Source: Sphingobium lactosutens DS20 (GTDB taxonomy: Bacteria > Pseudomonadota > Alphaproteobacteria > Sphingomonadales > Sphingomonadaceae). From it: a stretch of DNA of 64,000 nt. The stretch is from contig NZ_ATDP01000098.1 in the NCBI RefSeq assembly GCF_000445105.1, positions 62,001-126,000 of the forward strand, written 5' to 3'. The translations under genes and the position numbers were made by a program. How positions within the stretch are numbered: position 1 is the first letter of the stretch; each line of letters opens with the position of its first letter. The notes under the pieces were generated by a model. The model saw nothing but the letters and a program-made list of their open reading frames with translations. It had not been told where the DNA came from and made no database searches. Below are positions 3,162 through 4,777 of this stretch, piece after piece.

Positions 3162-3364
3162 AGCGGAGCCGGCGCGGCTTTGCCAAGCAAGCGAATGATG
3201 CGCAGACCAAAGGTCGTGTTTTCGCCGCGACGTTAACCTCTACATGGCCGGCCGTCTCATTCCGGCACGCGCCAAAATGAGGGAAGCCAAGCACCGGGAT
3301 TTCGCGTATGGGCGCGTCTTCGCGGCATGACGCGCGCGGCTTGGGAACGAATGACGTGCAGGCA

Positions 3365-4312
3365 ATGGGCAGAAGAGCAAAGGGCGGCATGGCCCTGCTG
3401 GCGCTATGCGCGCTGGTCGCCCCGCGCCTGATTACGGCCGCGCCGCTCGATTTGCTGGAAGGCAGCGCGGCGCCGGTCGACCCCGCCGAACAACCTGGTG
3501 ACAATTTCCCGGGCTCCGCCTTTTTCTACGCCGAAGGCGCGTTCGCCCCGGTGCCCGGAGTGGAGATCGTTCAGAGCCGCCATGTGCTTGGGCTGGATGC
3601 GGTCAAGGCGGCGCCGGCCGCCGTCTTTCGCGGGCTTACGGCTCTGGATGGTTATCGCGCTGCCAACTGCCTGACCAACGCCATATATTATGAGGCGGGT
3701 AACGAACCCGAAGAAGGCCAACGGGCAGTCGCCCAAGTCGTCTTGAACCGCGTGCGCAGCCGCCTCTGGCCCGACAGCGTGTGCGGCGTCGTCTATCAGG
3801 GGTCCGAGCGGATCGACGCCAAATGCCAGTTCACCTTCAGCTGCGACGGCTCCATGACGCGGGCGCCTGCGCCCGGTGCCTGGGCGCGCGCGCGGCGAAT
3901 CGCGCAGGAGGCGCTGGCTGGATCAGTCTATGCCCCCGTCGGCCTCGCCACCCATTATCATACGCTTGCCGTTCGCCCGGACTGGTCGGGGTCTTTGCAG
4001 GCTGTCGCCGTCGTGGGCGCGCATATCTTCTACCGCAATCACGGCTTCAACGGCACGGTGGCGGCGTTCAACGCCCCTTATGCCGGTCGCGAACTGATTT
4101 CCGGTCCGGCGCGCACCAGTTGGCCCGCGAAACCAGTCGCACCGGCCGAGGCGCAGGCGATGCCGATACCTCTGCCAAATGGCGCGCTGCCCCCAGCGAC
4201 TGCGCCGTCATGGTCGTCACCGGGCAGTCCGGGCGACGCGTCAGCGGACAGTCGGCTGCCGCAATCGACGATCAAGCCCGAATATCGCAACAGCGGCCGC
4301 CCGCTTATCTGA
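3365..4312 (+). CDS. SleB/CwlJ-type cell wall hydrolase
   Basis: A 315-residue exported protein with a signal peptide (hydrophobic stretch MALLALCALVAPRL, cleavage likely after ITAA). Residues about 95-230 form a Hydrolase_2 (SleB) domain: it opens at NCLTNAIYYEAGNEPEEGQR, with the catalytic-type Glu in YYEAGNE, then VAQVVLNRV, and continues to the TFSCDG and ATHYHT blocks. The C-terminal 80 residues are Pro/Ala-rich and likely disordered. Family members cleave peptidoglycan; in Gram-negative bacteria they act in the periplasm and are not tied to sporulation. The frame continues upstream to ATG 3308, but the signal peptide fits best from 3365. The gene stands alone, divergent from cysK. Confidence 0.8.
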   Translation: MGRRAKGGMALLALCALVAPRLITAAPLDLLEGSAAPVDPAEQPGDNFPGSAFFYAEGAFAPVPGVEIVQSRHVLGLDAVKAAPAAVFRGLTALDGYRAANCLTNAIYYEAGNEPEEGQRAVAQVVLNRVRSRLWPDSVCGVVYQGSERIDAKCQFTFSCDGSMTRAPAPGAWARARRIAQEALAGSVYAPVGLATHYHTLAVRPDWSGSLQAVAVVGAHIFYRNHGFNGTVAAFNAPYAGRELISGPARTSWPAKPVAPAEAQAMPIPLPNGALPPATAPSWSSPGSPGDASADSRLPQSTIKPEYRNSGRPLI

Positions 4313-4395
4313 TTTTCTTGCGGTTAATAACTGGGCTACCATCCACCCAATTGAAATGACGGAAAAATAAAATTTGCAGGGCGTGAGGGACCGCT

Positions 4396-4421
4396 GGAAC
4401 CGAATGGCATTCCGGTTGGTT
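4396..4421 (+). promoter_or_regulatory. EcfG-type promoter candidate P1 (upstream of the sRNA)
   Basis: GGAAC at 4396-4400, a 17-base spacer, then GGTT at 4418-4421. The alphaproteobacterial general-stress sigma factor EcfG (SigT in Caulobacter) recognises GGAAC-N16/17-CGTT; this site matches at all but one of the nine core bases. A start point 7-9 bases downstream would fall at about 4428-4430, exactly at the foot of the first hairpin of the candidate RNA. This coincidence is the main support. Confidence 0.5.
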
Positions 4422-4475
4422 CTCTACCCCGGATAGCAAATCTTTTGCCCCCCGCTCTTGCTATCCACAAAATAT

Positions 4476-4523
4476 GAGCCCGGAACGTTTCTCCCCCCGA
4501 CGCGTTCCGGGCTCTACTTTTTT
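4476..4523 (+). terminator. Rho-independent terminator (3' end of candidate sRNA)
   Basis: Perfect 12-bp inverted repeat GAGCCCGGAACG (4476-4487) and CGTTCCGGGCTC (4503-4514), a 15-base loop, then six T at 4518-4523. It lies 164 bases beyond the SleB-type gene and so more probably ends a separate transcript than that mRNA. Confidence 0.8.
4482..4506 (+). promoter_or_regulatory. Perfect EcfG consensus inside the terminator hairpin (P2)
   Basis: GGAAC at 4482-4486 and CGTT at 4503-4506 are separated by exactly 16 bases, a full match to GGAAC-N16-CGTT. Both elements lie in the two arms of the terminator stem; because GGAAC pairs with GTTCC, the palindrome itself partly creates the match, so chance is a real alternative. 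If active, it would start transcription near 4513-4516 and drive the entericidin gene with a leader of about 135 nt. Confidence 0.4.
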
Positions 4524-4563
4524 GCGCCGGTTTTTCCCACAAGATCTTTATTGTTTGGCCCCC

Positions 4564-4588
4564 GGAACGGATTTTCGGAACACGGGTT
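4564..4588 (+). promoter_or_regulatory. EcfG-type promoter candidate P3 (upstream of entericidin gene)
   Basis: GGAAC at 4564-4568, a 16-base spacer and GGTT at 4585-4588, one mismatch from GGAAC-N16-CGTT. A start near 4595 would give a leader of about 55 nt to the ATG at 4649. A second GGAAC at 4577-4581 with CGTC at 4597-4600 has a 15-base spacer and fits less well. Entericidin-type genes are often stress-induced, which fits but does not prove use of this site. Confidence 0.45.
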
Positions 4589-4648
4589 TTTCCCATCGTC
4601 GCCGCCCTGAACGATCAGGCGGCAACCGTTTCTTGAGGAGATTTTTCG

Positions 4649-4777
4649 ATGGCGAAGAAAATCATTACCGCCTTGCTGCTCACCGGTTCGCTGATGGTTG
4701 CCGCGTGCAACACCGTCGAAGGCGCTGGCCGTGACGTGCAGAGCGCTGGCAAGGCCGTGGAAGATGCCGCGGACTAA
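4649..4777 (+). CDS. Entericidin EcnA/B-family small lipoprotein
   Basis: A 42-residue protein: positively charged start MAKK, hydrophobic stretch IITALLLTGSLMVAA, lipobox ending VAAC with Cys at residue 18, then NTVEGAGRDVQSAGKAVEDA, the amphipathic signature of the entericidin family (NTxxGxGxDxxxxGxxIxxAA). GAGGAG at 4635-4640 gives a good ribosome binding site. Entericidins are small membrane lipoproteins; the E. coli pair acts as a stationary-phase antidote/bacteriolytic toxin, while single-copy versions are widespread with unclear function. Only one copy is present here. It is preceded by two or three EcfG-type promoter candidates and followed by a strong terminator at 4811-4844, so it is monocistronic. 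Confidence 0.85.
   Translation: MAKKIITALLLTGSLMVAACNTVEGAGRDVQSAGKAVEDAAD

Follow-up and report, generated by a model that had tools for sequence, protein, structure and literature searches.

What does the intergenic stretch between a hydrolase gene and an entericidin gene of Sphingobium lactosutens encode? The window, meaning the whole stretch of 64,000 nucleotides that was analysed, carries on its forward strand a cell-wall hydrolase gene at 3308-4312 (SleB/Hydrolase_2, Pfam PF07486), which is the upstream neighbour in Sphingobium-type loci, and at 4649-4777 a conserved neighbour, the gene ecn for an entericidin-family lipoprotein (Pfam PF08085, 39.3 bits). A sequence-only reading had placed an EcfG-dependent small RNA (sRNA) with two C-rich loops here, designed like GsrN of Caulobacter, and had called the stretch intergenic. 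The position between the two genes is correct. Two mechanical open reading frames run across the stretch, at 4336-4596 on the reverse strand and at 4474-4734 on the forward strand. A coding frame is disfavoured because the length of the C-tract in the terminator loop differs among relatives: over 96 aligned rows it varies from 5 to 13, while the C-tract of loop 1 is 6 or 7. It is possible that the terminator-loop tract is an element tuned by slippage.

The predicted sRNA covers 4430-4523 on the forward strand, about 94 nt, with its 5' end probably at about 4428-4430 and its 3' end probably within the T-run. Both structural elements read from the letters are found, all on the forward strand. 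Hairpin 1 (4431-4466) has a perfect 9-bp stem, GGATAGCAA/TTGCTATCC, in which 4431-4439 pair with 4458-4466. Hairpin 2 has 13 bp (4476-4488 with 4502-4514) and occupies, together with the T-run, 4476-4523. The T-run at 4518-4523 and hairpin 2 make up an intrinsic terminator with a second C-rich loop; in the 96-row alignment the T-runs are poor in many Sphingomonas rows. The six C in each loop had also been read correctly: in the 18-nt loop of hairpin 1, AUCUUUUGCCCCCCGCUC, a putative target-pairing loop, they are at 4448-4453, and in hairpin 2 at 4493-4498. Partition-function folding gives C4449-C4453 and C4493-C4498 an unpaired probability of at least 0.95, and C4448 one of 0.57. The fold of 4380-4530 has an energy of -65 kcal/mol (z -5.15), and none of 200 shuffles is equally stable. 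Between the hairpins lies the A/U-rich linker ACAAAAUAU (4467-4475, forward strand), a candidate RNase E cleavage site that is likewise A/U-rich in 30 aligned rows of the same genus.

The EcfG-type promoter is located at 4396-4421 on the forward strand, with a -35 box GGAAC at 4396-4400, a 17-nt spacer and a -10 box GGTT at 4418-4421, just as the sequence-only reading had it. By the sequence criterion GGAAC-N16/17-N[G/A]TT this promoter type is kept in 96/96 aligned loci, and the promoter played no part in finding them. GGAAC stands 32-36 nt 5' of the RNA (-33 in 69 loci, -34 in 24, -32 in two and -36 in one), and the -10 box, at a spacing of 16 or 17, is CGTT in 70, GGTT in 14, TGTT in 8, CATT in 3 and AGTT in 1. 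The distance from box to hairpin is 8 nt in 90 of the 93 loci scored. In Sphingopyxis granuli the EcfG motif is reported to be GGAAC-N16-CGTT, with TGTT, CATT and GGTT as the next commonest -10 boxes, used as in vitro transcription templates, and ecnAB is reported to depend on EcfG factors (PMC7083833). In the window a separate EcfG-type promoter, GGAAC-N16-GGTT at 4564-4588 on the forward strand, precedes the entericidin gene.

The motif GGAAC-N16/17-SGTT is found four times in the 64-kb window, all inside 4396-4588, against an expected 1.2; at least four are also found in 3 of 100 shuffles of the window, and the motif count by itself carries little weight. The terminator stem supplies two of the four, one on each strand: 4482-4508 reads as an EcfG site (GGAACG-N-CGTT) in either direction. 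As many relatives lack this site, the EcfG-like reading of the stem is probably a coincidence.

By BLAST the RNA is found in 35 of 61 genomes, which are 35 of the 37 genomes of the window's genus (its own included); there was no BLAST match to it in the genus genomes G027 and G033, nor in any of the 24 genomes of other families of the order. Among 28 distinct genus rows, 99.8% of the cells are paired, and 5 of 23 pairs have changed on both sides (shuffled mean 1.7). A covariance model of 30 rows, R1, has matches in 83 of 249 family genomes, spread over 37 of 96 genera. For the model of 96 rows, R2, the numbers are 102 of 249 sampled family genomes and 43 of 96 genera; the 102 is an upper figure, of which about 97 are trusted, because five genomes (G238, G108, G291, G129 and G179) rest solely on chance-like matches. 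The other 147 of the 249 have no R2 match under strict filters, and since Infernal's stricter filters were used in all genome-wide model searches such absences are soft. In a sample of 289 genomes of the class R2 matched two, the window genome and G150 of the same family, and none outside the family; for other families of the order, the searches with R1 and R2 extend as far as this sample includes them. Two R1 matches in the class, L061 and L062, are GC hairpins without a promoter and were rejected.

The input of the larger alignment was the window and 96 of 142 loci (L001-L142), with near-identical Sphingobium rows, same-contig copies and L061/L062 left out; the incomplete L115 was dropped, and 96 full forward rows out of 115 were kept (A2 to A3). 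A pattern derived from the RNA itself had fetched 56 of the 96 rows, which biases loop 1 and the 3' stem; the promoter lies outside this pattern. In the alignment 98.8% of 2,185 cells are paired. Further, 16 of 23 pairs have changed on both sides (shuffled mean 12.0) and there are 296 double-change cells (shuffled mean 74), a signal that is destroyed by sliding the partners, and these covariation figures should be read with the fitting of the alignment to the covariance model in mind. Compensatory stem changes in relatives and a search with covariance models had been named beforehand as checks. Both came out in favour of the RNA, with such changes in the genus and family pairs given above and with covarying stems in many genomes of the family. 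On the grounds of conservation and covariation the predicted sRNA is beyond chance.

Within the RNA, conservation is highest in the loop core. Loop 1 is C6 or C7 in 39/39 aligned loci found by BLAST or model, with the pattern scan excluded, while more divergent relatives depart from this (C4 in L274, C11 in L266). In Sphingobium abikonense (L119) the RNA is that of the window with one extra C in loop 1. Second copies elsewhere in three genomes (L256, L257 and L264) have another stem and keep the loop core GCCCCCC(C)GCTC together with an EcfG-type promoter. That the core is kept on different stems is as expected of a pairing seed.

The named hosts among the matches listed (80 loci) are Sphingomonas, Sphingobium, Sphingosinicella, Sphingomicrobium, Stakelama, Parasphingopyxis, Sphingorhabdus and Rhizorhapis. 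We re-read 40 R2 loci, namely weak, second-site and some middling matches; the remaining matches were not all re-read. A relaxed motif finds the promoter in 28 of the 40, and it is absent in 12. L250, L251, L253, L254, L255, L258 and L260 have neither promoter nor synteny and were set aside as probable chance matches. A second site of G104 (L259) is a C-loop hairpin without promoter, and L274 has a degenerate -35 box with tatC and ecn kept. In genus g25 (L246, L247 and L283) there is a divergent relative with tatC kept beside it and GGAAC absent; these relatives have possibly been rewired to another sigma factor.

Loci outside the Sphingobium type usually have the gene order phyR (reverse), nepR, HWE kinase, sRNA, ecn and tatC (reverse). 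By tblastn, PhyR is found upstream in 38 of the 40 such loci whose upstream sequence reaches at least 3.3 kb, and an HWE kinase in 67 of the 74 with at least 1.2 kb. On the other side, TatC is found in 59 and Ecn in 49 of 70 loci with at least 0.9 kb downstream. The exceptions for PhyR are L081 and L129, and the latter, named Sphingobium and having the hydrolase, was counted in this group. In the Sphingobium-type group, 15 loci assigned by hand, a SleB-like hydrolase stands upstream in the kinase's place in 15/15, ecn is found in 15/15 and tatC in 13/15; in the window itself tatC is absent beside ecn. Pfam identified PhyR, the kinase, TatC, a TatB-like protein and NepR in L066, and the kinase also in L100 and L109. 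The domain checks cover few proteins, and nepR in other loci stands for similar short frames read by eye. The neighbouring kinases fall well short of the PhyK equivalog cut-off.

In the window genome phyR and an HWE kinase are on contig C71, where the stress stretch holds no C-loop RNA behind an EcfG-type site. As phyR is on C71 and the sRNA on C98, the sRNA has probably moved out of the stress locus in the window's genus.

GsrN of Caulobacter crescentus (ccna_R0081) is described as an RNA of about 100 nt under the control of the stress sigma factor, with six tandem C in the 5' loop and a cleavage site near nucleotide 53; it activates katG by pairing where the katG leader begins, and its targets are G-rich (PMC5869019). 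In the account given there, BLAST homologues are confined to Caulobacteraceae, typically beside phyR-nepR-ecfG, a few gsrN-like genes in other alphaproteobacteria are predicted by position and expression, and Erythrobacter litoralis serves as an out-group in which no gsrN-like gene is apparent (PMC5869019). The sphingomonad RNA resembles GsrN in its EcfG/SigT-type promoter, its length of about 100 nt, the six-C loop exposed by a hairpin in its 5' part (C6 in the window, C6 or C7 in the 39 loci) and, in relatives, its location at the stress core. This location is seen in relatives, by the PhyR count above, and not in the window genome; gsrN of C. crescentus is itself an exception to it. GsrN is also known for a stable 5' isoform that results from cleavage and for a full length stabilised by Hfq. 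The two RNAs differ in that there is no covariance similarity between them, and that the sphingomonad RNA has a simple 9-bp hairpin without an inner hairpin and a terminator loop that is C-rich as well. Nor does pairing with katG come out of the predictions. A katG gene was identified in 9 of the 13 genus genomes, and 11 katG leaders have no conserved G-tract, with GGGG within 160 nt in 4 of the 11, at differing places; in the leader of the window genome GGGG is at -61, and the duplex predicted there has -18.4 kcal/mol. In kind the two RNAs look the same, while membership by sequence fails.

In general, known RNA families do not account for the locus. No Rfam family reaches its gathering threshold in the window, and the nine sub-threshold matches include ar14 and 6C. 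CC3552 (RF01529, gathering threshold 50 bits), which we infer is probably GsrN, has no match at gathering in the window and is not among the matches at E<=10 for 4380-4560. The small bacterial RNAs that come closer stay well below threshold: ar14 (RF02344) reaches 24 bits in the window against 58.8, and in the relative L066 CcsR1 (RF02791, a CCUCCUCCC-motif RNA) reaches 10.8 against 65.3 and Scr3202 of Streptomyces (RF02833) 25.9 against 52. Of these, ar14 and CcsR1 are alphaproteobacterial RNAs with C-rich motifs. The 6C RNA (RF01066; B11 in mycobacteria) is similar in having a C-rich loop and a terminator hairpin with a C-rich loop, and B11 is reported to have runs of six and nine C (PMC12395582). 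However, the 6C match has 17.8 bits against a threshold of 47, the RNA belongs to another phylum and B11 has a third stem-loop. We know of no EcfG in the case of 6C RNA or B11. The window's RNA was not recognised in the titles and abstract openings of the open-licence papers listed; the transcriptome of S. granuli (SuhB, 2018) may list it.

As far as sequence can tell, there is support for the predicted RNA gene with its fold and promoter, and for its association with the stress locus. The proposal of an EcfG-dependent, GsrN-like sRNA stands by the promoter, the compensatory changes and the adjacency to phyR, nepR and an HWE kinase. The part that does not stand is the portrayal of GsrN as a plain anti-Shine-Dalgarno RNA, since katG is reported to be activated through the start of its leader.

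Candidate targets were sought through the C-rich loop. The 16-nt complement of loop 1, with at most two mismatches, is found in 13 genomes at 24 places besides the gene, against 42 for a reversed control. Two long-complement sites recur, AGCGGGCGGAAAAAGA in 5 of 13 genus genomes and GGCGTGGGGCAAAAGA in 2. The former are at G000:C79:28223, G007:C7:11001, G010:C5:8976, G009:C4:23833 and G003:C4:29398; in the window genome the site sits on a contig of 43,934 bases and is perhaps part of a plasmid element. The pattern GCGGGGGG-N2-9-ATG occurs 42 times in the own genome against 8 for the reversed control, which is a crude one. Reading 18 GCGGGGGG-N-ATG sites, of 20 picked by hand, gave no defensible target: in five of the 18 (L316, L320, L326, L329 and L331) a frame of more than 80 aa opens at the ATG, and the remaining sites look gene-internal, as judged without gene calling. 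An anti-Shine-Dalgarno mode is putative and unproven.

In the established pathway, stress makes PhyR free EcfG from NepR. We consider it probable that the locus encodes a stand-alone RNA, transcribed by EcfG, with a regulatory role in the general stress response of alphaproteobacteria. It would be the sphingomonad counterpart of GsrN, and its C-rich loops would pair with G-rich leaders of mRNAs. Under stress, the freed EcfG is predicted to transcribe the sRNA from the promoter at 4396-4421. The 5' hairpin would then present the conserved loop GCCCCCC(C)GCUC, and the terminator hairpin a second C-rich loop. By analogy with GsrN and B11, these loops would most likely use short GC-rich seeds to pair with G-rich stretches of mRNA leaders, and the pairing may alter the translation or stability of several mRNAs. 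The linker may be processed, its A/U-rich sequence being suited to cleavage, and Hfq may be involved.

Other explanations of the same features have to be weighed. That these are chance C-rich hairpins behind a chance promoter might be suggested by the high GC content and by the 3 of 100 shuffles that match the motif count of the window, but the z-score of the fold, the covariation and the promoter in 96/96 loci oppose it and conservation is decisive, so the probability left to chance is negligible. The two hairpins could instead be a cis-acting 5' leader or attenuator of the downstream entericidin mRNA. The gene ecn is on the same strand, its match begins some 25-384 nt downstream of the RNA (in most cases 90-150), and the T-runs are imperfect in many rows. 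However, this is disfavoured because 66 of the 69 loci having ecn show a promoter-like site (GGAA[C/T] with a relaxed -10 box) between it and the sRNA; moreover, the second copies L256 and L257, with no ecn nearby, keep loop and promoter, and the terminator hairpin of the window is strong. A cis leader is therefore very unlikely. Constancy of the loop core while the stems vary, and the long-complement search that gave no target in 13 genomes, would also agree with a decoy, whose C-rich loops bind a protein and not mRNAs. We know of no candidate protein for such binding. We hold the decoy to be unlikely, as the C-rich loops of GsrN (PMC5869019) and of mycobacterial B11 (PMC12395582) are reported to base-pair.

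A different matter is whether the RNA is a true orthologue of GsrN by descent, and not a mere analogue in the same place. The sigma factor motif, the neighbourhood of the locus and the length of about 100 nt are the same. Two stress loci, L220 and L371, in which PhyK is above the equivalog cut-off as in the Caulobacter vibrioides control, carry an EcfG-promoter RNA with the loop GACGCCCCCCCGAC that Rfam names CC3552, and the loop core GCCCCCCCG is shared by these RNAs (beside phyR or phyK) and the window-type RNA. Against descent, the covariance model found nothing outside the family in the 289 class genomes under strict filters, CC3552 was not among the Rfam matches, and the RNA of L220 has an inner hairpin inside its 5' hairpin and a terminator loop that is not C-rich, unlike the sphingomonad RNA. 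Orthology is thus doubtful, though it deserves some weight, and a counterpart of GsrN in function and place is the reading we prefer.

The stress loci of family genomes without a match hold further RNAs of this kind. Of 19 such genomes, picked by hand (G033 being negative by BLAST only), 17 have PhyR, and 15 of the 17 carry another EcfG-promoter C-loop RNA beside phyR; in two (L409 and L410) no such RNA was found beside phyR. Type II is found in 12 of the 17 loci (L411-L422, e.g. L417:7497-7601, forward strand), again as an EcfG-promoter RNA beside phyR. Its loop is GAGACCCCCC(C)TCCCGTCCAAG in most, shorter in L413, with CCCCCTCCCGTCCAA as the conserved loop, and its terminator loop is C-rich in a minority only. 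Helix 1 of type II is nearly invariant and the covariation support sits in the terminator; in L417 there is no Rfam match at gathering. Type III, in three of the 17 (L423:7474-7578, L424:6808-6912 and L425:1941-2045), has two C-rich loops and an EcfG promoter beside phyR, and its hosts are the same-genus genomes G027, G203 and G033. L423 and L424 score about 28 bits with R2 (E about 0.0005), so that type III may be distantly related to type I, the RNA of the window. A pattern scan found neither type II nor type III in 121 loci, comprising type I, its weak matches and the stress locus of the window genome. In the loci examined, phyR is as a rule accompanied by an EcfG-promoter C-loop RNA, which comes in at least three forms.

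In 27 other alphaproteobacterial stress loci (19 and 8) there are 126 promoter-like sites, few of them with a C-run near the start. Two sites of family f12, L218:9700 and L373:12193, both on the forward strand, are EcfG-promoter hairpins with the loop CGGAACGCCCC(C)AGCCCC in PhyR or PhyK-like loci; they are possibly another GsrN-like form.

Tentatively, and with the odds somewhat against it, the stress core of sphingomonads may be seen as a slot for an EcfG-driven C-loop RNA that no fewer than three unrelated folds have come to occupy: type I, type II (loop GAGACCCCCCTCCCGTC) and type III (loop CCTGCCCCCGAAA). Together with GsrN and the look-alike 6C RNA of actinobacteria, these would form an arm of the stress response that consists of RNA and not of protein and is maintained through repeated displacement, with the C-rich loop alone conserved. 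Type II might explain why gsrN has been reported as missing from Erythrobacter, and if it occurs in Erythrobacter litoralis the published statement of "no apparent gsrN-like gene" would need revision.

The covariance models and the loci make a role of these RNAs in stress testable in tractable strains. The link between a C-loop RNA and the stress core in many Sphingomonadaceae suggests that alphaproteobacteria make wider use of post-transcriptional control in their stress response.
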